In this document: positions 8,289 to 18,167 of the stretch, one piece after another
Layout: each line of letters starts with the position of its first letter
Numbering within the stretch: position 1 is the first letter of the stretch
Assembly: GCA_944321345.1 (NCBI GenBank)
Contig: CALUKY010000002.1
Span: forward strand, 1-64,000
Source of the DNA: an uncultured Paraprevotella sp.
GTDB lineage: Bacteria; Bacteroidota; Bacteroidia; Bacteroidales; Bacteroidaceae
Direction: 5' to 3'
Length of the DNA: 64,000 nt
The notes under the pieces: model-generated
The model's database searches: none
The model's input: the letters and a program-made list of their open reading frames with translations, nothing else
Told to the model about the DNA's origin: nothing
Program-made: the position numbers and the translations under genes

Positions 8289-8948
8289 TTATCTCATGTC
8301 TTTCTCAGCCGCCTCACGTGCCATCTTGACCACATCTTCAGGCAGTTCTACCGGCAATACCTCGTTCGGATGATCAGCCGGATCATACAACATGGCTGTA
8401 CATACACAATATTTACGTCCGGTACGGGCCAAAATATCGCAGTTCACACAGCAAGGTTCTTCCGGAGTACCGCATCCCTTCCAGTAAGCATCGTCATCGG
8501 TCAGCTCGGCAAAGGTTACCGGCACATATCCCAGTTCGGTATTGATTTTCATCACCGCACGCTGGCTGGTCAGTCCGAACAGTTTGGCATGAGGCCAACG
8601 CAGACGTGACAGGGTAAAGGCTGTACGCTTGATTCTCGTTGCCAGATGGTGGCGACGGAATTTCTCGACAACAATCAGTCCGGAATTGGCTACATACTGC
8701 TTGTTACCCCAGCTTTCGATGTAACAGAAACCGGCAAATTCCTCGTTTTCTCCCTCTCCGGCCAATGCGATGACAGCCTTGCGCTCCTTCATCTTGGTAG
8801 CCAGATATTCGTGAGTACGCGAAGCGATACCCGAGCCTCTCTTCTTGGCAGCGTCGGTAATCGTTGCCAAAATTGTGTCTACATACTTTTCGTGGCATGC
8901 GTCCGCAACCACTACTCTAATACCATCATTGTATTCGTCCTTTTCCAT
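8289..8948 (-). CDS. GNAT acyltransferase of the arg operon, probable N-acylglutamate synthase
   Basis: 219 residues from the Met at 8948; the in-frame Met at 8972 would overlap argR by 20 bases and is less likely. A GNAT core is visible: a beta4-like segment ending in SGLIVVEKF, then RRHHLATRIKR as the acetyl-CoA pyrophosphate loop region. The C-terminal part has several Cys (CGTPEEPCCVNC and CVCTAM), suggesting a metal site or disulfides. No classical argA or argJ is seen. From memory, the Bacteroides thetaiotaomicron gene at this operon position was assigned by fitness data as the missing N-succinyl/acetylglutamate synthase, so I infer the first step of arginine synthesis. It lies between argR and argG on one transcript. 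Confidence 0.75.
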   Translation of the reverse strand: MEKDEYNDGIRVVVADACHEKYVDTILATITDAAKKRGSGIASRTHEYLATKMKERKAVIALAGEGENEEFAGFCYIESWGNKQYVANSGLIVVEKFRRHHLATRIKRTAFTLSRLRWPHAKLFGLTSQRAVMKINTELGYVPVTFAELTDDDAYWKGCGTPEEPCCVNCDILARTGRKYCVCTAMLYDPADHPNEVLPVELPEDVVKMAREAAEKDMR

Positions 8949-8952
8949 TTCT

Positions 8953-9429
8953 TTACTTAATATTTGGAACAACCTCGGCCAGGCGTTTCAAAGCCGCCTT
9001 GCGCTCCACATTTTCTGCCATAACCAGAAATATGGTGTCGTCGCCTGCTATTGTTCCTATAAACTCATCTATTTTGGCGTTATCTATATCATAAGCTATG
9101 TGACTGGCATGTCCGGGCAATGTGTGCATCACCAGAATGTTTCCTGAAAATTTCACAGACAACAGTCCGGCCCGGTTGCTTTCAGTCATGGTCAGATGCG
9201 AATCAGACACCCGCCGGTAAGTCTGGTTTCCCGGAAGCATATACGCATAGTCACCGGATGCCGTGGTAGCCTTCACCACCTTGAGCTGTTTCAAGTCGCG
9301 CGACAGTGTGGCCTGCGTCAGCTTAAAGCCAGCTTTATCCAATTCTATCAGAAGAGCCTCCTGACTGGAAATTTCCTGACTGGAAAGGATCATTTTGATT
9401 ACTTCCAAACGACTGTTTTTATTCTTCAT
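8953..9429 (-). CDS. argR: Arginine repressor
   Basis: 158 residues, the standard ArgR size. The N-terminal winged helix includes the recognition segment TQATLSRDLKQL. The C-terminal oligomerisation domain has GTIAGDDTIFLV, whose paired Asp residues bind L-arginine in E. coli ArgR. Arginine-bound hexamers bind ARG boxes and repress biosynthesis. It is the first gene of the arginine operon, and ARG-box-like sequences lie just upstream (9482-9593), so it probably controls itself and the downstream genes. Confidence 0.96.
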   Translation of the reverse strand: MKNKNSRLEVIKMILSSQEISSQEALLIELDKAGFKLTQATLSRDLKQLKVVKATTASGDYAYMLPGNQTYRRVSDSHLTMTESNRAGLLSVKFSGNILVMHTLPGHASHIAYDIDNAKIDEFIGTIAGDDTIFLVMAENVERKAALKRLAEVVPNIK

Positions 9430-9454
9430 CTTAAAACCATTTCTTTTTCTGCGA

Positions 9455-9462
9455 CAAAATTA
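9455..9462 (-). promoter_or_regulatory. argR operon promoter (-7 element)
   Basis: Read on the minus strand the bases are TAATTTTG, a full match to the Bacteroidetes TAnnTTTG -7 box, 26 bases upstream of argR. The -33 region near 9474-9477 reads TTTC, an imperfect TTTG. The first ARG-box candidate (9482-9495) would sit immediately upstream of or over the -33 region. Confidence 0.6.
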
Positions 9463-9481
9463 CATATTTATTCCGAAATAC

Positions 9482-9593
9482 AGTATTTTTATGCATTATT
9501 TCTTTTGAATATTTTTTATGCATCAAATTAAATTACTAATTTTCAAGAATATGAATACAACACTGCATATGCACATCTTGAATATTTATGCAA
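9482..9593. promoter_or_regulatory. Cluster of ARG-box-like operators
   Basis: The best site is at 9578-9593 and reads TTGAATATTTATGCAA: half-sites TGAAT and ATGCA separated by 4 A/T bases, the exact architecture of an ArgR box. Weaker sites with the same right half are at 9482-9495 (AGTATTTTTATGCA) and 9509-9522. They lie between argR and the divergent gene at 9695, so ArgR could control both directions. The assignment is by motif only. Confidence 0.55.
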
Positions 9594-9642
9594 CAATCAT
9601 AGACTTTTCTGATAAAGAAGCAAGCGAAACGACGAAACACGC

Positions 9643-9674
9643 TTGCAAATATTCCGATAAATCCATTATATTTG
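9643..9674 (+). promoter_or_regulatory. Promoter of the DUF2007/zinc-ribbon gene
   Basis: A -33 TTG at 9643-9645 and a -7 TATATTTG at 9667-9674 match the Bacteroidetes consensus, with about 21 bases between box starts. The start codon follows at 9695. Confidence 0.55.
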
Positions 9675-9694
9675 CGAAAAAACAAAGTCCAAAG

Positions 9695-10111
9695 ATGAAA
9701 CAGGAAGAGTATAATATGGTCACGGTATTCCAAAGTCAGGATCTGGGGAAAATATACTTGGCACACAACCAGCTCCAGAATTCCGGCATTGACTCATTTA
9801 TAAAAAACGAGTTTCGTGCCTATAACATAGGATACATCGAATTACAGGTTCATCAAAGGGACACCCAACAGGCCTTGCATCTGCTGGGCGAGCTCTTCCC
9901 GGAAGAATTTGCCCGGAAAATCATCTGTCCGCACTGCGGTTCGGAGCAGGTGCACATATCTTCAACGGCACACAACCGTTTTTTGAAAAAAATACAGATT
10001 GGAATACAACAGTTAAAGTACCAGCTCCTGCGCGAATTGCCGAAGGGCACTTATCAATGCGGAAATTGCCAGAAGCTATTTTCCTATCCCCATCCTTCCA
10101 AAAACAAATAA
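9695..10111 (+). CDS. DUF2007-like / zinc-ribbon protein
   Basis: 138 residues from the Met at 9695. The frame is open from 9518, but that upstream part overlaps the promoter and ARG-box region and is AT-rich, so I reject it as coding. The N-terminal about 65 residues (VTVFQSQDLGKIYLAHNQL ...) resemble the DUF2007 'putative signal transducing' fold. The C-terminal part has a zinc-ribbon pair, CPHCGS and CGNC. The function is unknown. It is cytoplasmic by lack of a signal, and monocistronic, ending before a terminator at 10179-10217. Confidence 0.75.
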   Translation: MKQEEYNMVTVFQSQDLGKIYLAHNQLQNSGIDSFIKNEFRAYNIGYIELQVHQRDTQQALHLLGELFPEEFARKIICPHCGSEQVHISSTAHNRFLKKIQIGIQQLKYQLLRELPKGTYQCGNCQKLFSYPHPSKNK

Positions 10112-10178
10112 TACTTTACGGCACATAAAAACAAACTTCGGGACCATGTTTCAAACGATCCCGATCATTCCAGAAAAT

Positions 10179-10217
10179 GGCCTTGATGGTTTTACAAAAT
10201 CATCAAGACCTTTTTTT
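10179..10217 (+). terminator. Rho-independent terminator after the DUF2007 gene
   Basis: Arms 10179-10194 and 10197-10210 pair over about 14 bp with one mismatch and are followed by seven T (10211-10217). Confidence 0.8.
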
Positions 10218-10297
10218 AAAAGTGTCCGCTCTAGCTTCACAACGCAGACACAAACATAAATTATCATCATTATCCATCATAAACAACAACAGACAAC

Positions 10298-11761
10298 ATG
10301 CAAGAGATCAAGAAAAATCCGCCCTTGTGGCTTTCCATTATTCCCTTAGTCATTTTAACGGTGATGCTTGTCAGCGTCGTACTGGCATTTGGCAGCGACT
10401 CTCTGTCCGGAGCCAGCCAGATAGCTCTTCTGGTAGCCTCCGCCTCATGCATCACCCTCGGCCTGCTGTTCAAAACCATGAAATGGAGCGATTTTGAATA
10501 TGAGATAAACCGACACATCGGTGATTTGGGACAAGCCATTCTGATTCTTCTGCTCATCGGAGCCGTGGCCGGCTCCTGGATGATCAGCGGAGTGGTGCCC
10601 ACCATGATCTACTACGGGATGCAGATCATCAGTCCGCAATGGTTCCTGGTGTCCACCTGTGTGATTTGCGCCATCGTATCGGTCATGACCGGCAGTTCGT
10701 GGACCACCGTAGCCACTATCGGAATCGCCCTATTAGGTATCGGCAAGGCCCAAGGCTTTCACGAAGGCTGGATTGCCGGCGCCATCATCTCGGGAGCTTA
10801 TTTCGGCGACAAGATGTCGCCCTTGAGCGATACCACCGTTCTGGCAGCCTCAACGACCAATACTCCCCTCTTTGAACACATCCGATACATGCTCTACACC
10901 ACGGTGCCCGCCTTCATCCTGACCATCATCATCTTTGTCTTCATGGGACTGAACCACGGCGGCGAACTGACCAATCAGATCGGAGATTTCTCTAAGGGAC
11001 TGAGCCAGGTGTTCCGCATCACCCCTTGGCTGTTGCTGGTTCCGGTGGTAACCCTGCTGATGATTATCCGCCGCCTGCCGGCCATCATCATTCTTTTTCT
11101 GGCCACACTGATGGCCTGCATCACAGCCATCTTCGTACAGATCAATCTGGTGGACGAGATTGCCGGAGGGGATGCCGGCTCGCTGATGAACCGCTTCCGG
11201 GGCGTGATGATTCTGCTCTACGGCAGTACCAGTCTGGACACCGGAGTGCCGGAACTGAACAGTCTGGTGGCCACACGAGGCATGTCGGGCATGATGGGAA
11301 CCATCTGGCTGATTCTCTGTGCCATGACCTTCGGCGCTTCGATGAAGGCCTCCGGCATGCTGCGCAGCATCATGCATATCTTTGTGTCCTTCACCCAGAA
11401 AACCTTCTCCATCGTGGCTTCGACAGCCGGAGTGGGCTTTTTCTCTACGGTAGTCTGTGCCGACCAGTATCTGGGCATCATCCTGACGGGAAACATGTTC
11501 CGCGACATTTATAAACAGCGGGGCTATGAAAGCCGCCTGCTAAGCCGTACCATAGAAGACTCGGTGACCGTGACTTCGGCTCTGATTCCGTGGAGCACGT
11601 GCGGTATGACGCAGTCTATGGTATTGGGCGTGTCTACCTTTGTTTATTTCCCCTTCTGTTTCTTTAACTATCTGAGCCCACTGATGACGCTGCTGCTGGC
11701 CGCGCTGGGTTATAAGATCAAACGCTGCGTGAAGCCCTCAACCTCAACAGAAGCCGCTTAA
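10298..11761 (+). CDS. nhaC: Na+/H+ antiporter, NhaC family
   Basis: 487 residues with about 11-12 hydrophobic segments. Family hallmarks are GSSWTTVATIGIALLGIG and, following it, SGAYFGDKMSPLSDTT, whose Asp residues lie in the transport core; a repeat-related segment, SLIPWSTCGM-like (ALIPWSTCGMTQ), is near the C-terminus. It is an inner-membrane exchanger of sodium for protons, used in pH and salt homeostasis. The sequence from 10218 to 10297 between the upstream terminator and this start shows no clear promoter match. The PNPOx-like gene follows after 31 bases. Confidence 0.93.
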   Translation: MQEIKKNPPLWLSIIPLVILTVMLVSVVLAFGSDSLSGASQIALLVASASCITLGLLFKTMKWSDFEYEINRHIGDLGQAILILLLIGAVAGSWMISGVVPTMIYYGMQIISPQWFLVSTCVICAIVSVMTGSSWTTVATIGIALLGIGKAQGFHEGWIAGAIISGAYFGDKMSPLSDTTVLAASTTNTPLFEHIRYMLYTTVPAFILTIIIFVFMGLNHGGELTNQIGDFSKGLSQVFRITPWLLLVPVVTLLMIIRRLPAIIILFLATLMACITAIFVQINLVDEIAGGDAGSLMNRFRGVMILLYGSTSLDTGVPELNSLVATRGMSGMMGTIWLILCAMTFGASMKASGMLRSIMHIFVSFTQKTFSIVASTAGVGFFSTVVCADQYLGIILTGNMFRDIYKQRGYESRLLSRTIEDSVTVTSALIPWSTCGMTQSMVLGVSTFVYFPFCFFNYLSPLMTLLLAALGYKIKRCVKPSTSTEAA

Positions 11762-11792
11762 AACCACTCGCATCTTATACATTATTATACAT

Positions 11793-12194
11793 ATGGAAAA
11801 AGCACTGGCATTCTTAAAAGAACATATAAATGTGGCCTTGGCCACAGTGGAAAACGATTGTCCGAAAATCCGTGTTTTTCAGATCATGAAACAGGAAGGG
11901 GCGGTGTTCTATTTCGCGACCAACCCAAATAAGGAGATCTACAGCCAACTACAGCAGAACAGACATGTGGAGTTCCTGGCGATGGACGGAAATATTTCCG
12001 TTCGGGTGGCTGGTGAAGCCAGCCTTCAGGTGCCGGATAGTGTGGCACAGGAAATCTATCGCAACAACCCGGTGTTGCACCGTTTTCACGACACCTATCG
12101 CACAATCGCGTACTTCAGCATAGCTGCCCAAAAAGTAGACTATTATGACTTAGGAACCTCACCGATCACCTTTGAGAGCTACTCATTAATATAG
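11793..12194 (+). CDS. Pyridoxamine 5'-phosphate oxidase-related FMN-binding protein
   Basis: 133 residues, one split-barrel domain. LATVENDCPKIRVFQIMKQ, then YFATNPNKEIYSQLQQNRHVEFLA is the typical pattern of small FMN-binding PNPOx-like proteins. These bind flavin and reduce or shield small substrates; the actual substrate is not evident. It lies downstream of nhaC on the same strand and ends before a hairpin at 12220-12263. Confidence 0.85.
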   Translation: MEKALAFLKEHINVALATVENDCPKIRVFQIMKQEGAVFYFATNPNKEIYSQLQQNRHVEFLAMDGNISVRVAGEASLQVPDSVAQEIYRNNPVLHRFHDTYRTIAYFSIAAQKVDYYDLGTSPITFESYSLI

Positions 12195-12219
12195 GGAATT
12201 ATCTTCTGAAGCTATAAAA

Positions 12220-12263
12220 ATCAGCCGGAATCCAACCTTATTCAGGATTGGATTCCGGCTGAT
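12220..12263 (+). terminator. Hairpin terminator after the PNPOx-like gene
   Basis: Perfect 16-bp inverted repeat, arms 12220-12235 and 12248-12263, loop 12 nt, followed by a T/A-rich stretch without a clean T run. About 60 bases here, including the loop and the AT-rich tail, resemble the hairpin at 15398-15455. Confidence 0.65.
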
Positions 12264-12298
12264 ATCCTTATATAAACATAAAGAATTATGTCCACTTT

Positions 12299-12337
12299 TG
12301 TGTCCGGAAATGGACAGTGTGTCCATTTCCGGACACA
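12299..12337. promoter_or_regulatory. Perfect inverted repeat, candidate activator (UAS) site
   Basis: Arms 12299-12316 and 12320-12337 are perfectly complementary over 18 bp around a 3-base spacer; each contains the core GTCCGGAAATGGAC. The centre is about 88 bases upstream of the predicted start of transcription from the sigma-54-type promoter at 12380. That is where NtrC-family enhancer-binding proteins usually bind. It is not followed by a T run on either strand, so it is not an obvious terminator. Confidence 0.6.
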
Positions 12338-12379
12338 ACATTTTTCACTAAACTACTGATATTCAATCAAATAACATTT

Positions 12380-12394
12380 TGGCATGGTTTTTGT
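12380..12394 (+). promoter_or_regulatory. Sigma-54-type promoter of the outer-membrane gene
   Basis: TGGCAT, 5 bases, TTGT matches the RpoN consensus TGGCAC-N5-TTGC at all key positions except the final C of the -12 GC. Transcription would start near 12406, leaving a leader of about 35 bases before the ATG at 12441. I see no TAnnTTTG box in the same interval. Confidence 0.6.
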
Positions 12395-12440
12395 TTTTTA
12401 GAGTATAGACAGATTAAATACAATATAAAAAATAAATGCC

Positions 12441-15245
12441 ATGAGAAAACTTAAAAGAATCATCACCTCACTTTTGACACTTGTTTTCGCCTTGAATGCG
12501 TTCTCACAAAGCTTCATTTTAGGCTGTGTACAGGACGCCTTCCTGAAATACCCGTTGCCGGAAGCCAAGGTGTCGGTACTTCTTGCCGCAGACAGCACTG
12601 TGGTTATAGATTCCATTCCCATTTCAAAAAGCCGCCGAAGTGACGGGACTCTTCAGGCGGCGGAGTTTGTATTCCGGCCGGAGCGCAAGACCTGCAAATA
12701 CCTGCTTCGGGCCAGGCTTGCCGGCTATGAAGACGCATACCAGTTATTGTCTATCTACGAAAACGACAAAAGTGCCATAAAGCTTGACGATCCGCTCGAA
12801 TTGCACAAGATAAAGCAAATGAGTTTGGATGGAGTAACGGTAACGGCTACCAAAGTAAAGATGTATTATAAGGGCGATACTATCGTCTATGATGCCACGG
12901 CATTTAAGCTGCCCGACGGTTCGATGCTGGATGACCTCATACGCCAGATGCCCGGTGTGACGATGAACAACAACGGCGAAATCTTCGTAAACGGCCGCAA
13001 GATAGACGAACTGCAACTCGGTTCGCGCTCGTTTATGCGCGGCAACTCAAAGGTCCTGCTGGAAAACCTGCCTTACTACACGGTAAAGAACATAAAGGTA
13101 TATGAGCAGGACACAGACTTAAACCGCGCCTTAAATGCGCAGATTGAAAAGAAAAAGTTCGTTATGGACGTGAATCTGAAGCCTGAGTACCAAAGAGGAT
13201 ATATAGCCAATGTAGAGACTGCCGGAGGTACGGAAGAACGCTGGTTGGGACGTGCGTTCCTGCTCAGTTTTACTAAAAATACCCGTTACACCCTGTCGAT
13301 CAACTCAAACAACGTGAATGAGAGCCGCCACATAGGCAGCTCGGATCAGTGGACTCCCCAATCCATGCCGAACTCCTTATTGACAACCCATAGCGTTAAG
13401 GGCGAAATAGACTATCAGTCAACTGACAAGAATGTAAAGGAAAACCTGAACGTGGATTTCACGTCCAGCAGCAACGAGGTGGAAATGGTCCAACGCAACG
13501 AGTTGTTCCTTCCAGACAATCCATTGCAGACAACCCGCCAGAATTCGTTGAACAAGGAGAATCGGTTGAGTTTAGGCAATAAATTCACATACACCAAGCC
13601 CGAACGCTTCATGCTCACCACAGACCTGGCAATAAATCACAGATCATACAGCGGTAACTCTTCCATGCTGTCTGAGCAATATGCCGACACACTCATCGTA
13701 CGTCAACGTAATGCCGGCTTCAATGACGGCAAATCATGGAAGACTCATTTCTACGCACGCACACAACCCTATTTGAAGAATCTCGGGAATTGGAATCAAT
13801 ATTTCGTATTCATGACGGAGTTAGACCATGCGTCCGATGAGAACCAACAGGCCCAACGTTTCCATATAAACGATTTGGTCAAGCCTTCCGATAGCAAGTC
13901 GTACAACAGCAATGATTACTCGAACCGCAATTTGGCTGTGCATACTCCCATTTTCTATGGTTTGAAGAGGAACAGATATTACATGAATATAACAGTAGAT
14001 CCATCATACAGCCGGAACAAAACGAAAGACTGGTTGTATCATCCGGACACGCTTCTGCTTCCATCCCAGCTGGACATGCTTCAAGCCATAACCGACCGTT
14101 CGAACTCTTACGACAGCGAATTGCAAAATTTCAAAGGAGACGTTACGCTTCATTTTGACCGTAAGCAAATTGTTTACAGTAAAGATTCTGATTGGCCACG
14201 TGAACTTCTGGAGTTTGACCTGAAGCTGACGTCCGAACACGAACGATTGGGCTATCAGCGTGGAATTCTTGATACTGTGGCAACACGTAATTCCATGCTC
14301 CTGGACGGATCCATGAAAATGCATTTCTATGTAAAGAAGCACGTGAATCGTCCTGTGCACTTGGTTTTTGGCTACAGAGAATACAACTCACCGCTGCTGA
14401 ACCAGATTGGTTTTCGGGATGATGCCACCCCTCTTGTGGTCCGTCTCGGAAATCCGGACTTGAAGTCCTATAACTCCATGGCTTATTTTGAAATAGGACA
14501 CCAAGACAGAAGTACTTCCGGATACTCACTCTTTACGTACGCCCAATTCTCCTATGACCTGAACAGTATCTCCCAGTCCGTAAGTTTCAATCCTACCTCG
14601 GGTGTTTATACGTATCGGCCGGAGAATATAAAAGGCTCTTATCGGGCCTTGGCAATGGCAAAAGTCTTTCATACTCTTGATAAAGACAGACATTGGAGCA
14701 TGGAGAGTAGCTCTAACGGCTCATTCTTCCACAGTCTTGATCACACCCTGCTCGCCGGCGAGACCGAAAGTCGTGTGAATGCGGTCAATACCCTGACTCT
14801 GAATGAAGGTGTATATGTGCAATATGACAAGGGCGCGTTTAACATCCGTGCCACAGGCGACATAACCTGGCGGCACAGCGAGGGCAAGATGCGCGATTTC
14901 GAGACCCTGAATGTCACGGACTTCAAGTATGGTTTGTCTGCCCGTTACACGATTCCGAAACTGAAAACGACAATTTCTGCCGACGGAAACATGTATTCCC
15001 GCCGTGGCTACGGCAGTGCGGAACTGAATACGGATGACTTTGTGCTGAACGCTTCCATCTCCCAGCCTTTCCTGAAAGGGAAACTGATAGCCCGCATTGA
15101 AGCATTTGACATCCTGCACCAACTCTCGTCTACACAATATCAGGTAAATGCCCAGGGACGCATCGAAACATGGTATCGCTCGCTTCCGCATTATTTCATG
15201 GCGCATCTCGTTTATCATTTCAATAAGAATCCAGGAAAGAAATAG
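12441..15245 (+). CDS. Outer-membrane beta-barrel protein (TonB-dependent-receptor-like, OMP_b-brl_3 type)
   Basis: 934 residues. Signal peptide 1-22 (ends NAFSQ). A carboxypeptidase-regulatory-like beta domain comes next (about 25-110). A plug-like region, with GVTVTATKVKMYYKGDTIVYDA and then DLIRQMPGVTMNNNGEIFVNGRKI, is at about 130-200. A long barrel of alternating polar and hydrophobic strands reaches the C-terminus. I see no SusD partner, no TonB box and no FecI/FecR pair nearby, so the ligand is unknown. The gene stands alone behind a sigma-54-type promoter and perfect inverted repeat, and ends before a strong terminator. GC-richer codons distinguish it from the AT-rich araC/ribB pair that follows. 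Confidence 0.85.
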   Translation: MRKLKRIITSLLTLVFALNAFSQSFILGCVQDAFLKYPLPEAKVSVLLAADSTVVIDSIPISKSRRSDGTLQAAEFVFRPERKTCKYLLRARLAGYEDAYQLLSIYENDKSAIKLDDPLELHKIKQMSLDGVTVTATKVKMYYKGDTIVYDATAFKLPDGSMLDDLIRQMPGVTMNNNGEIFVNGRKIDELQLGSRSFMRGNSKVLLENLPYYTVKNIKVYEQDTDLNRALNAQIEKKKFVMDVNLKPEYQRGYIANVETAGGTEERWLGRAFLLSFTKNTRYTLSINSNNVNESRHIGSSDQWTPQSMPNSLLTTHSVKGEIDYQSTDKNVKENLNVDFTSSSNEVEMVQRNELFLPDNPLQTTRQNSLNKENRLSLGNKFTYTKPERFMLTTDLAINHRSYSGNSSMLSEQYADTLIVRQRNAGFNDGKSWKTHFYARTQPYLKNLGNWNQYFVFMTELDHASDENQQAQRFHINDLVKPSDSKSYNSNDYSNRNLAVHTPIFYGLKRNRYYMNITVDPSYSRNKTKDWLYHPDTLLLPSQLDMLQAITDRSNSYDSELQNFKGDVTLHFDRKQIVYSKDSDWPRELLEFDLKLTSEHERLGYQRGILDTVATRNSMLLDGSMKMHFYVKKHVNRPVHLVFGYREYNSPLLNQIGFRDDATPLVVRLGNPDLKSYNSMAYFEIGHQDRSTSGYSLFTYAQFSYDLNSISQSVSFNPTSGVYTYRPENIKGSYRALAMAKVFHTLDKDRHWSMESSSNGSFFHSLDHTLLAGETESRVNAVNTLTLNEGVYVQYDKGAFNIRATGDITWRHSEGKMRDFETLNVTDFKYGLSARYTIPKLKTTISADGNMYSRRGYGSAELNTDDFVLNASISQPFLKGKLIARIEAFDILHQLSSTQYQVNAQGRIETWYRSLPHYFMAHLVYHFNKNPGKK

Positions 15246-15284
15246 GAAAAACGAAATAGGCCAAAACATTCTTATATCTAAAAA

Positions 15285-15328
15285 CAGAAAAGGGGAGCGC
15301 CCGCTTGTTGGGCCGCTCCCCTTTTCTG
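15285..15328 (+). terminator. Terminator after the outer-membrane protein gene
   Basis: Perfect 15-bp inverted repeat, arms 15285-15299 and 15314-15328, with a G/C-rich core and the four T inside the arm. The loop is 14 nt. Confidence 0.8.
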
Positions 15329-15343
15329 ATGAATGCAAAATGT

Positions 15344-15391
15344 GTGTGTGTAAAAACGTCTGGCTTTAGTGTTCTGCTCATTTGAATCAAC
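15344..15391 (-). pseudogene. Fragment of a GNAT acetyltransferase gene
   Basis: On the minus strand the bases encode VDSNEQNTKARRFYTH. This matches VDVNEQNPKARRFYTH in the C-terminal GNAT domain of the gene at 17201-18091, and the DNA is nearly the same too. No complete GNAT domain surrounds it: the frame is closed off by the terminator hairpin on one side and the AraC gene on the other. I take it as a remnant left by deletion or by a duplication of the nearby gene. Confidence 0.55.
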
Positions 15392-15397
15392 AGAAAG

Positions 15398-15437
15398 CAG
15401 CTTGAATCCGACCTTGTCTATTGTTGGATTCTGGCTG
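15398..15437 (-). terminator. Imperfect hairpin after the AraC gene
   Basis: Arms 15398-15412 and 15423-15437 pair with a few mismatches. The hairpin lies just beyond the AraC stop (15464) on the minus strand. Its sequence is related to the perfect hairpin at 12220-12263. Confidence 0.45.
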
Positions 15438-15463
15438 TTGTATTTATATAAATAGTAACTCAA

Positions 15464-16345
15464 TTAGAATCTTTTATTTTCAGGTTTAACAGTCAAATTT
15501 CTTCTGTACTCAGAAGGTGTATGCTGGGTTATCATTCTAAAAACCCGATTAAAATAGGACAGATTATTAAAACCACATTCATAAGCAATCTGTCCGCTTG
15601 ACAAATCTGAAACAGAAAGTAATCTACAAGCATGCTCAATCCGAATTTCATTAAGTACGGAGAAAATAGTCTTTCCCGTCTTTTTTTTAAAAAAACGACA
15701 TACTGAAGTAGTCGTACGCCCAACATACGCCGCAACCTTATTCAGCTCGATCGGTTTATTAAAATTAGTCCGTAAATAAGCATAGATTTTTTCTATAGGC
15801 TCATTTATACACAATGCAGATAAATCATTATGAAGTGAAGAAGCAATTTTCCTATAGGGACATTCACTCAGGACCTCCAGAACTCTATATAACAAAATGA
15901 CTCTTTCAACCCCCTTTACACACTCAAAACAATCTAGTAGTTCTAAAACTTGATTTATCTTCTCCTTTGAATCAAACCTTATCCCCAACAAACTATCTTC
16001 TAACAAGAAGGCAATACGACTCAACTCGGGTGTGCTTGACAAGTTAGCAGGAAAAAGGCTTATCGGAAACTGCAAAATACGACAAGAGCTTCTTATTTTA
16101 TCATTGCAAATGTAAGAATTACACAAATGAAAATGAGGCACGTTTCTACCTATCAGAGTAAGATCTCCAGAATTATAATCTAAAACCATATCTCCTATAT
16201 ATTCTTTCCCATTTCCTGAAACAAAATAAATCAATTCATACTCTTCGTGCGCATGTAGTGGCATTGTAAAAGGTATATTATGATTGTAACAAAAAGACTC
16301 CCCGACCTTATAAGTAATTTTACGATATAAAATTGACGTTTTCAT
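15464..16345 (-). CDS. AraC-family transcriptional regulator
   Basis: 293 residues. The N-terminal cupin-like sensor domain has MPLHAHEEYELIYF, then DYNSGDLTLIGRNVPHFH (His pairs typical of AraC sensor cupins). The C-terminal double HTH begins near residue 190, with IELNKVAAYVGRTTTSVCRFFKKKTGK and, after it, SSGQIAYECGFNNLSYFNRVFR as the second helix pair. The ligand is unknown. It is divergent from ribB across 97 bases that hold both promoters and a palindrome, so ribB is its likely target. The gene is clearly AT-richer than the surrounding genes, a sign of possible transfer. Confidence 0.9.
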   Translation of the reverse strand: MKTSILYRKITYKVGESFCYNHNIPFTMPLHAHEEYELIYFVSGNGKEYIGDMVLDYNSGDLTLIGRNVPHFHLCNSYICNDKIRSSCRILQFPISLFPANLSSTPELSRIAFLLEDSLLGIRFDSKEKINQVLELLDCFECVKGVERVILLYRVLEVLSECPYRKIASSLHNDLSALCINEPIEKIYAYLRTNFNKPIELNKVAAYVGRTTTSVCRFFKKKTGKTIFSVLNEIRIEHACRLLSVSDLSSGQIAYECGFNNLSYFNRVFRMITQHTPSEYRRNLTVKPENKRF

Positions 16346-16365
16346 ATTAATGAAAAAATGGTACT

Positions 16366-16385
16366 ATACTATGCAAATATAGTAT
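16366..16385. promoter_or_regulatory. Palindromic operator candidate between araC-type gene and ribB
   Basis: ATACTAT at 16366-16372 and ATAGTAT at 16379-16385 form a 7-bp inverted repeat around 6 bases. It overlaps the predicted -7 box of the AraC gene, which fits autoregulation. Confidence 0.4.
16374..16381 (-). promoter_or_regulatory. Promoter (-7) of the AraC gene
   Basis: The minus strand reads TATATTTG, a full TAnnTTTG match, 29 bases upstream of the ATG at 16345. Confidence 0.55.
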
Positions 16386-16408
16386 TAATAACTTCTATTC
16401 CTTTACCC

Positions 16409-16416
16409 TACCTTTG
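16409..16416 (+). promoter_or_regulatory. Promoter (-7) of ribB
   Basis: TACCTTTG is a full match to the Bacteroidetes -7 box, 27 bases upstream of the ribB ATG. The -33 region is a poor match, which suits an activator-dependent promoter. Confidence 0.5.
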
Positions 16417-16442
16417 CAAAAGAGAATTTTAATTATAAAATC

Positions 16443-17090
16443 ATGGAAAAGAAAGATCTAACAGAAGCAAAACAAGGCTCAATCCAGAAAGTGGAAATAG
16501 CCTTAAAATCTCTCAGAGAAGGAAAAGGCATACTGCTTACTGACAATGAAAACAGAGAAAATGAAGGAGATCTAATCTATTCGGCTGAAAAAATGACAAA
16601 AGAACAAATGGCTCTAATGATCAGAGAATGCAGTGGAATTGTCTGTTTATGTCTTACTTCTCAAAAAGCATCCGAACTACACCTGAAACTAATGACTGAA
16701 AACAATATGTCAAATTATGGCACAAACTTCACTGTTTCAATAGAAGCGGCACAAGGCGTAACAACCGGGGTATCAGCTTCAGACAGAATCACCACAATAA
16801 AAGCGGTTATACAACCTAATGCCCAACCTACTGATATAGTTTCACCAGGCCATGTCTTTCCTTTAATAGCCAAAGACAATGGCGTTTTTGAACGTGACGG
16901 TCATACAGAAGGGAGCGTAGATCTGATGAAATTAGCTGGTTTATCTCCTTTCGCCGTTCTTTGTGAACTTACAAATATTGATGGTACAATGGCAAAGTTA
17001 CCTGAAATAAAAGCATTTTCCAAAACCTATCATTATCCTATTGTTTCCATCCTTGATATTATAGAGTATCGTAAACATTTTGGTCTATAA
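16443..17090 (+). CDS. ribB: 3,4-dihydroxy-2-butanone 4-phosphate synthase, stand-alone form
   Basis: 215 residues, the length of E. coli RibB (217), without the C-terminal GTP cyclohydrolase II domain of RibBA fusions common in Bacteroidetes. RENEGD at 38-43 is the metal and substrate loop; GHVFP (His137), DGHTEGS (His154) and LCELTN (Glu175) are also kept, with His154 and Glu175 matching the catalytic pair. It converts ribulose 5-phosphate to dihydroxybutanone phosphate and formate for riboflavin synthesis. It is AT-rich and divergent from an AraC regulator. No FMN riboswitch is seen in its 27-base leader. A second, housekeeping riboflavin set is presumably elsewhere. Confidence 0.92.
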
Positions 17091-17099
17091 AACTTGAAT

Positions 17100-17148
17100 G
17101 AAATAATATATACCCATAGACACAACATTGATGGGTATATATTATTTC
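17100..17148. terminator. Bidirectional terminator after ribB
   Basis: Perfect 18-bp inverted repeat, arms 17100-17117 and 17131-17148, loop 13 nt, A/T-rich. It lies between the convergent ribB (+) and double-GNAT gene (-). Confidence 0.75.
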
Positions 17149-17200
17149 CCCAAATTCGTGAGCCATAAAGAATAAAGAAGGAAAACATCAGTCTATAATC

Positions 17201-18091
17201 CTACAGCCTCATCCTGATTATCGGAAAAGGATTTCCCTGTTCGTCAGTTTCTGTTCTTTCGTATTCCCGGAACCCCATATGCGTATAGAAACGTCTGGCT
17301 TTAGGATTCTGCTCATTTACATCCACAAACACGCATCCATAATCCTTGATTGCCATGTTTATAAGAAGCGTTCCCAAACCGTATCCCCAATATTCGGGGG
17401 CAAGAAACAACATTTCCACCTTACGGTCTTCCATCCCGATAAATCCGACAGGATCATCACCGTGATATAATACAACAAGATTAGCGATCATTTCCAAAGC
17501 CTCACGTACAGCCGGAATCAACTTCTGAATATCCTCTTCCGAAAGAAAGTCATGGCTTGCTCTCACAGAACTTTCCCATACCTCGGTCAATGATGAAATA
17601 AGAATATCTGTTCTCTTATCTCTGTGTACCACATTCGGGCATACCAAAGGTTTCTTGAAATAAAGCATATCCTTTAGGCGCTTTCCATCTTCGATGATGG
17701 GATGATCATAATGAAGCGTGAAAAAATCGGAAACCAAATGTGAATAACGAAAGCCACAAGACTGATAAAAGGAAACAGTCATTTGACTCTCACCGGTACC
17801 CACAATGATAAGCTGGAACCGACGCGCATAATGAGTACACAGGAAACGGACCATCTCGCTACCGTACCCCTTCCTTTGATATTGTGGGGCAACCGCCAAA
17901 CTTTTCAATTCGCAGATTCCATCTCCCTCTTCCGTAACAACCGCAGAACAGACCGGTTCATTTTCTGAATGATACATCACAAACAAATCCCCTCTTTCCA
18001 AATACCGGTCTATCATGGACTCTTGTTCATCGGCCAACAACAGAAGTTCCAGATATCTTTTCTTATCCACATCAATCTTGCTTATTCTCAT
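17201..18091 (-). CDS. Tandem-GNAT N-acetyltransferase
   Basis: 296 residues, with two GNAT domains in a row. Domain 1 (about 1-140) has VAPQYQRKGYGSEMVRFLC as the acetyl-CoA loop. Domain 2 (about 160-296) has LAPEYWGYGLGTLLINMAI and ends with DVNEQNPKARRFYTHMGF, the typical C-terminal strand-helix. Such proteins acetylate small amines, peptides or antibiotics; the substrate cannot be told. It is monocistronic, with a predicted promoter at 18118-18125. A fragment of a related gene lies at 15344-15391. Confidence 0.88.
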   Translation of the reverse strand: MRISKIDVDKKRYLELLLLADEQESMIDRYLERGDLFVMYHSENEPVCSAVVTEEGDGICELKSLAVAPQYQRKGYGSEMVRFLCTHYARRFQLIIVGTGESQMTVSFYQSCGFRYSHLVSDFFTLHYDHPIIEDGKRLKDMLYFKKPLVCPNVVHRDKRTDILISSLTEVWESSVRASHDFLSEEDIQKLIPAVREALEMIANLVVLYHGDDPVGFIGMEDRKVEMLFLAPEYWGYGLGTLLINMAIKDYGCVFVDVNEQNPKARRFYTHMGFREYERTETDEQGNPFPIIRMRL

Positions 18092-18117
18092 AATCTGAAT
18101 TAAACTACGCTATGAAA

Positions 18118-18125
18118 CAAAGATA
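18118..18125 (-). promoter_or_regulatory. Promoter (-7) of the double-GNAT gene
   Basis: The minus strand reads TATCTTTG, a full TAnnTTTG match, 27 bases upstream of the start. Confidence 0.5.
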
Positions 18126-18167
18126 CATCATTAGAAATATTCATGAAAAACACGATGATATAAAAAA

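Follow-up and report, generated by a model that had tools for sequence, protein, structure and literature searches.

A predicted sigma-54 promoter with a mirrored TGTCC enhancer before a solo outer-membrane barrel gene of an uncultured Paraprevotella, and the candidate exporter regulon to which it may belong

The window analysed here, a stretch of 64,000 nucleotides from an uncultured Paraprevotella sp. (assembly GCA_944321345.1, contig CALUKY010000002.1), carries at 12441-15245, on the plus strand, the gene of a TonB-receptor-like outer-membrane barrel of 934 aa that stands alone, with no SusD partner adjoining it at the locus. The two genes upstream are of NhaC and PNPOx type (the PNPOx-like gene at 11793-12194, plus strand) and the next gene downstream, on the minus strand, encodes an AraC-family regulator, in agreement with the original prediction of an orphan barrel without SusD. 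Neither Pfam nor NCBIfam assigns the protein to a family at the cut-off; in Pfam, OEP scores weakly (15.2 bits against a cut-off of 22) and no plug or receptor family is found. When solved structures were searched by sequence with an alignment of the barrel, from which L078 (stops in frame), L080, L083 and L084 were left out, there were no matches. An AlphaFold2 model computed on 18 sequences reached a pLDDT of 72 and a pTM of 0.59, and because parts of it are poorly placed it is kept out of the mechanism proposed below. By title, the best 50 of 709 Foldseek matches (E up to 10) are TonB-dependent transporters, with a best E of 1.9e-11 and TM-scores from 0.17 to 0.34; as these TM-scores are low, the TonB-receptor-like character of the barrel is likely rather than proven. 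TonB-dependent receptors fold as a plug with a barrel of 22 strands.

Upstream of the barrel gene, a perfect inverted repeat spans 12298-12338 (plus strand), with arms of 19 nt (12298-12316 and 12320-12338) that are 100% complementary around a 3-nt loop. It contains two TGTCC-N6-GGACA dyads, the distal one, TGTCCGGAAATGGACA, at 12301-12316 and centred at -97.5, and the proximal one, TGTCCATTTCCGGACA, at 12320-12335 and centred at -78.5, both read on the plus strand. Their cores are asymmetric, GGAAAT in the distal dyad and then ATTTCC in the proximal one, making the two mirror images of each other. The perfect repeat originally described is real, with arms one base pair longer than the 18 bp given, and the position of about -88 assigned to the palindrome GTCCGGAAATGGAC belongs to the pair of dyads as a whole, GTCCGGAAATGGAC itself being the core of the distal dyad at -97.5. 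Further downstream, the claimed RpoN-type box was confirmed by pattern matching as TTGGCATGGTTTTTGTT at 12379-12395 (plus strand). It has GG at -25/-24 and an exact ten-base spacing, but GT instead of GC at -13/-12, so that its -12 element reads TTGT, as it does in two of the three sister sites described below. The sigma-54 consensus at this position is TTGC. Taking GG as -25/-24, transcription would start at 12406 on the plus strand, giving a predicted leader of 35 nt up to the ATG at 12441. Between enhancer and box lies a weak IHF-like sequence, ATTCAATCAAATA (12361-12373, plus strand), which differs at two positions from WATCAANNNNTTR, the core of the Escherichia coli IHF site, and ends 5 nt before TTGGC. 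The claimed absence of a TAnnTTTG housekeeping box was upheld for 12196-12440. The PNPOx-like gene is followed by a separate terminator-like hairpin of 16 bp at 12220-12263, with its best T-run on the minus strand.

A long perfect hairpin is not decisive on its own: elsewhere in the window there are further perfect inverted repeats, 15-20 bp long and with short loops, some of which look like terminators. No inverted-repeat arm longer than 11 appeared in 10 first-order resamples of the window. Dyads with one mismatch number three in the window against 1.6 expected, which is no clear enrichment, and 80 per strand in the genome against 95 for the reversed pattern, which is none, and dyad counts alone were dropped as evidence for this reason. 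For TTGGCA-N6-TTG with one mismatch, the window shows only a mild excess (30 against 21). TTGGCA-N6-TTGYW occurs 38 times in the genome against 10 in the control, and we looked at 33 of these boxes, namely 30 plus three on C33 and C34; 21 of the 30 were flagged as inside an open frame, many of these probably being due to chance, although the flag also fell on the promoter at C10:17944, where an overlapping frame can be read through the promoter. It is the combination of both elements that stands out. A dyad followed after 38-52 nt by TTGGC-N7-TTG was found at four sites in the window's genome against none for the reversed control pattern, and at 42 sites in 27 of the 201 genomes of a family sample against two for the reversed control, with the reservation that related genomes do not yield independent counts. 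This lies far outside what chance would give.

A check proposed with the original prediction was to look in the genome for rpoN and for further copies of the palindrome before sigma-54 boxes. The gene is present (C1:145441-145914, above the cut-off of NCBIfam rpoN_sigma), and the enhancer recurs at three further places, so that enhancer and -24/-12 box stand together, with near-fixed spacing, at four. Apart from the window barrel (C2:12301 to 12379, plus strand), these are a MacA/ABC/TolC-type exporter operon (C10:3506 to 3585, dyads at C10:3506-3540), two barrel genes beside a kinase gene (C10:17865 to 17944, dyads at C10:17865-17899) and an S41-type peptidase gene of 570 aa (C9:27953 to 27892, minus strand). 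The three sites with two clear dyads have a distal-dyad-to-box distance of 78 or 79; in the C9 site the distal dyad is degenerate, and the proximal dyad and its spacing are kept. Perfect dyads occur at ten places in the genome, six of them within the four sigma-54 promoters and four away from sigma-54 boxes (C1:3783, C5:5234, C15:56396 and C48:1825). Since the assembly is 91% complete and in 78 contigs, this list of sites may be short. Downstream of C10:3585, the genes encode, in order, an HlyD/MacA-like adaptor, FtsX/MacB-type permeases, a LolD-like ATPase, an OEP/TolC-type channel, a response regulator and a histidine kinase. The two barrels after C10:17944, of 992 and 986 aa, are related to the window barrel (best segments with 36% identity over 322 aa and 31% over 318 aa); the start of the first was chosen by us, its frame being readable also from an ATG inside the enhancer. 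The window barrel does not appear to be isolated, as it joins a predicted regulon with the exporter operon and two barrels of the same family.

The window site has a -24/-12 box with its proper spacing, a dyad-symmetric upstream enhancer and rpoN in the same genome, all of them features expected of a sigma-54 promoter, and it would require an activator. Of the nine genes with a match to the sigma-54 activator domain, five have a strong one (E below 1e-60; one gene each on C10, C33, C34, C49 and C53), and the other four score at most 32.1 bits. The C10 gene (15046-16434) encodes a response regulator with receiver, sigma-54 AAA+ and Fis-type HTH domains and adjoins the histidine kinase gene at 16403-17758; among the best 25 NCBIfam matches of regulator and kinase, no equivalog is above its cut-off. 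Its L1 loop reads GAFTDA, not GAFTGA, and in eight orthologues the loop is GAFTDA or GSFTDA in seven and GAFTGA in one. GAFTDA variants can be active. The regulator and its eight orthologues have in common the recognition-helix stretch SR[GA][AS]LYR[RK], which differs in the other four activators. The original idea of a sigma-54 promoter and enhancer served by an NtrC-family activator encoded elsewhere is thus supported by comparative evidence, with the regulator on C10 as the candidate activator. It would also be autoregulated, as the exporter operon behind the enhancer ends in the genes of regulator and kinase.

The family-wide distribution of the sites points in the same direction. Loci were retrieved for 30 of the 42 sites and, leaving out the window's own and L107, which lies inside an open frame, a homologue of the MacA, ABC or TolC genes of the C10 operon stands directly downstream in 24 of 28 loci: an adaptor in 12, an ATPase in two, a permease in five and a TolC in five. 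The four loci with no exporter homologue directly downstream are L090, L092, L097 and L111. Among ten longer stretches taken around sites, exporter genes lie at or beside the site in nine, eight of which also have regulator and kinase; in L152 the kinase is found further along, at G186:C4:49173. The tenth, L147, is without exporter gene, regulator or kinase. With orthologues of the kinase defined by scores of at least 295 bits (the next class reaches no more than 126, and at most eight candidates were scored per genome), the kinase is present in 55 of the 201 genomes and in 26 of the 27 site-bearing ones. Only G180 is without it, and there the site is within an open frame. In a genus sample of 12 genomes, the kinase was found in the window's genome, G132 and G160, and TGTCC sites occur in these three and in no others of the sample. 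Several genomes that have the kinase and not the exact dyad have TGTTC-N6-GRACA before the exporter operon instead. Searching for the TGTTC spelling with the box relaxed to TKGC yielded 43 sites, spread over 31 of the 201 genomes, against three for the reversed control; two of the matches come from genus members that lack the kinase (G022 and G103), and both are without TTGGCA. When the two spellings are pooled, 44 of the 55 kinase genomes have a match, as do 12 of the 146 others, and in the remaining 11 kinase genomes neither spelling of the dyad at a box was matched by either pattern search. Fisher values for the association with the kinase are 2e-16 for TGTCC and 5e-23 for both spellings, figures that ignore shared ancestry and are only rough. 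The pair of dyads is not universal, since a second dyad within one mismatch occurs just upstream, usually 19-24 nt away, in only 18 of 37 distinct sites. The feature is often less pronounced, and the perfect mirrored pair of the window would seem to be its strong form.

A further element recurs in the spacers. We scored 40 of the 42 for the IHF core, leaving out those of G180/L107 and G165:C38, two sites that both read TTGGCG and both lie inside open frames. The core is perfect in 19 of the 40 and within one mismatch in 32, and in 34 spacers exactly 5 nt separate the end of the best match from TTGGC, although many of these sites are orthologous and hence not independent; 1000 shuffles of the spacers gave means of 0.1 perfect matches (maximum 2) and 1.8 within one mismatch (maximum 7). 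In the window's genome the fit is perfect at C9 and at the first of the C10 sites, with one mismatch at the second and two at the window site, the weakest of the four. Six matches to the HU/IHF family occur in the genome. A site for IHF or another bending protein between enhancer and box is frequent in sigma-54 promoters but not required.

A second type of dyad, GTGCG-N4-CGCAC, precedes -24/-12 boxes in 16 of the 201 genomes, with no match for the reversed control. In the window's genome its sites stand before an OEP/TolC-type gene adjoining the C33 activator gene at C33:1197-2570 (site at C33:2663), a MacB/FtsX permease (C33:12417), another barrel, OMP_b-brl_3 (C4:112720), a 756-aa protein without a Pfam family (C1:29068) and an FtsX/MacB permease frame (C1:125643). 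That each of the two dyad types stands beside its own activator gene favours an assignment of TGTCC to the C10 regulator, and by the same reading a solo barrel would have been drawn into the predicted GTGCG regulon too. Other boxes and activator genes were observed in passing. Near the C34 activator gene, a near-consensus sigma-54 box (C34:6292-6308) is preceded by the IHF-like TATCAATGAATTA and by TGTGGA-type repeats, surroundings that suggest a third enhancer code. Another -24/-12 box, at C4:117269-117285, lies 107 nt before a gene with a DnaK-like protein start. The receiver-less sigma-54 activator gene at C53:2096-3917 stands directly before lptE (Pfam LptE), and the parts of a report on Flavobacterium psychrophilum that we consulted give the same pairing of activator gene and lptE for that organism (PMC9723704).

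Relatives of the barrel occur in all 18 genomes of the genus that were searched, the closest named one, with 71% identity, being from an uncultured Paraprevotella. None of the 29 other genus loci, which include orthologues of 72% (G160) and 62% (G048) identity, has a -24/-12 box, with several of these loci cut at the 5' end, and three have a single dyad with two mismatches. Among the named relatives, upstream DNA was available for 19 of 21, several with fewer than 500 bases; none has a -24/-12 box and four have one dyad with one or two mismatches. The notion that the promoter is conserved along with the barrel gene was dropped, since the relatives looked at are without it. Moreover, a block of about 5 kb (12234-17193) that holds promoter, barrel, AraC-family regulator and a DHBP-synthase/RibB-type gene is absent from G132, which has 136 bp in its place between flanks (8800-12233 and 17194-18152) that are 92% identical; the kinase of G132 is 99% identical to that of C10. 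The left edge of the block (12233/12234) is straddled by the hairpin at 12220-12263. The difference may reflect either an insertion in the window's genome or a deletion in G132. From the promoterless relatives together with the lack of the block in G132, the target in the window appears to be lineage-specific. The site of the longer stretch L147 (G132:C2:10555-10628) seems to be an orphan enhancer-promoter that matches the C9 site, with the peptidase gene missing, a match judged by eye from the leader sequence and one neighbouring gene.

Taken as a whole, these observations are in our view very probably explained by an enhancer-dependent sigma-54 promoter that would be activated by the C10 regulator and would make the barrel part of an exporter regulon. 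RNA polymerase bearing RpoN would form a closed complex at 12379-12395. The C10 kinase (C10:16403-17758), as the partner, would signal to the regulator (C10:15046-16434), which, once phosphorylated, would bind the mirrored dyads at -97.5 and -78.5 as two dimers. The DNA between enhancer and box would then bend, perhaps at the IHF-like sequence that is present in most family sites and weak in the window, and the AAA+ domain of the regulator would open the promoter. The barrel would in this way be made together with the exporter and the two sister barrels, in response to a signal that is perhaps envelope or antimicrobial stress. Given that the neighbourhood of the regulator carries the same enhancer twice, before the exporter operon and before two barrels, the window barrel can be regarded as a dispersed, lineage-specific member of the exporter regulon. 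The TTGT at -12, the weak IHF-like element and the GAFTDA loop speak against this explanation and call for caution, as do the barrel relatives lacking a box, the perfect dyads away from sigma-54 boxes, the sites without a second dyad and the imperfect agreement between sites and kinase.

The repeat could also be read as the terminator of the PNPOx-like gene (12298-12338 and then CATTTTTC), with TTGGCA a coincidence and the barrel transcribed from an unrecognised housekeeping promoter. As RNA the repeat does fold (-32.6 kcal/mol, z -7.6), equally strong folds are seen at two of the three sister sites (z -7.8 and -7.9), and a terminator scan includes it, other long hairpins of the window being terminator-like. 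However, the hairpin at 12220-12263 is nearer to the upstream gene, three other loci have the sequence of the repeat before a -24/-12 box, with near-fixed spacing, and in 19 of the 37 distinct family sites a second dyad within one mismatch is missing, and with it a hairpin of two good dyads. The C9 copy has no long hairpin (z -1.8) yet keeps the proximal dyad and its spacing. What the sister sites keep is dyad and spacing, not always the hairpin, and we have dropped the terminator reading as very improbable. It is likewise unlikely that the promoter and enhancer are real and served mainly by the activator encoded on C33, C34, C49 or C53. The domain is strong in all five activator genes and cross-talk among related activators is possible in principle, but the TGTCC dyads flank the gene of the C10 regulator, its partner kinase is found in nearly every site-bearing genome, the C33 gene adjoins the different GTGCG dyad, and the recognition-helix stretch of the C10 regulator and its orthologues is not that of the other four. 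Finally, enhancer and promoter might be a relic that came with the 5-kb block and no longer drives the gene, as could be imagined from the lineage-specific target, the weak IHF-like element and the persistence in G132 of a site without its peptidase gene, a sign that orphan sites do persist. Yet the dyads are two perfect mirror images, GG and TTG are retained in the box, the spacing is that of the other sites and the open frame of the barrel is intact over its 934 aa, so that we hold decay of the promoter to be extremely improbable.

With an activated sigma-54 promoter in an exporter regulon, sigma-54 control in gut Bacteroidaceae would gain concrete candidates for its activator, enhancer, promoter and targets, and uncharacterised TonB-receptor-like barrels would be connected to an exporter response. 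Such regulons could then be read from many gut genomes by their enhancer code, TGTYC-N6-GRACA in the present case and GTGCG-N4-CGCAC for the sibling activator. More speculatively, and with considerable doubt on our part, a family-wide export regulon with a conserved cassette of dyads, IHF-like site and -24/-12 box might recruit barrels lineage by lineage, genes arriving with the cassette and joining the pump response at once, and the barrels might pass the exported product or a signal through the outer membrane.

Regulation of this kind was originally described as seldom reported in Bacteroidales. Few such assignments were indeed found; the statement nevertheless needs qualifying, since a computational survey from 2025 already reports sigma-54 enrichment in Bacteroidia (PMC12316311) and sigma-54 promoters have been described in Flavobacterium (PMC9723704), as far as the consulted parts of both papers go. 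The survey predicts the enrichment for ABC antimicrobial-peptide permeases (COG0577) of the class Bacteroidia and calls its result the first evidence for this permease family (PMC12316311). Its targets resemble ours in being FtsX/MacB-type permeases of the same bacterial class; the parts consulted name no enhancer sequence, activator or barrel target, and the main text does not use the terms IHF, integration host factor, palindrome or inverted repeat (PMC12316311). In Flavobacterium psychrophilum, of the same phylum, mapped -24/-12 promoters (motif SM4) have chaperone and envelope targets and are tied to envelope and protein-quality stress, and three activator-domain proteins are noted and not tied to promoters in the sections consulted (PMC9723704). 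That regulon has a DnaK target, and the window's genome also has a -24/-12 box before a DnaK-like gene; Table 2A, a selection by the authors, contains no MacAB/TolC operon and no TonB-receptor-like barrel (PMC9723704). In the open-licence literature we found no description of the TGTCC enhancer or of an exporter/barrel regulon, which is weak evidence of novelty, and nothing on sigma-54 with MacB in Bacteroidetes or on RteB with NtrC. A link between sigma-54 and RteB is part of the general background.

The predicted exporter is of a familiar kind. With its HlyD-type adaptor, MacB_PCD/FtsX permease, ABC ATPase and OEP-family channel, the C10 operon resembles the MacA-MacB-TolC tripartite exporter, from which it differs in encoding the ATPase separately from the permeases and in its multiple permease genes. 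The proposed control is similarly close to that of NtrBC, ZraSR and AtoSC, with which it shares the domains of the regulator, paired dyads at about -80 to -100, a -24/-12 box and an adjoining kinase gene; it differs in the GAFTDA loop and in having no equivalog among the best 25 NCBIfam matches. Whereas the targets of those systems are nitrogen, zinc and acetoacetate genes, respectively, the predicted targets of the C10 system are exporter, barrel and peptidase genes. As a kind, sigma-54 two-component regulons are known, and what would be new, as far as the open-licence literature shows, is an exporter/barrel regulon with a TGTCC enhancer.
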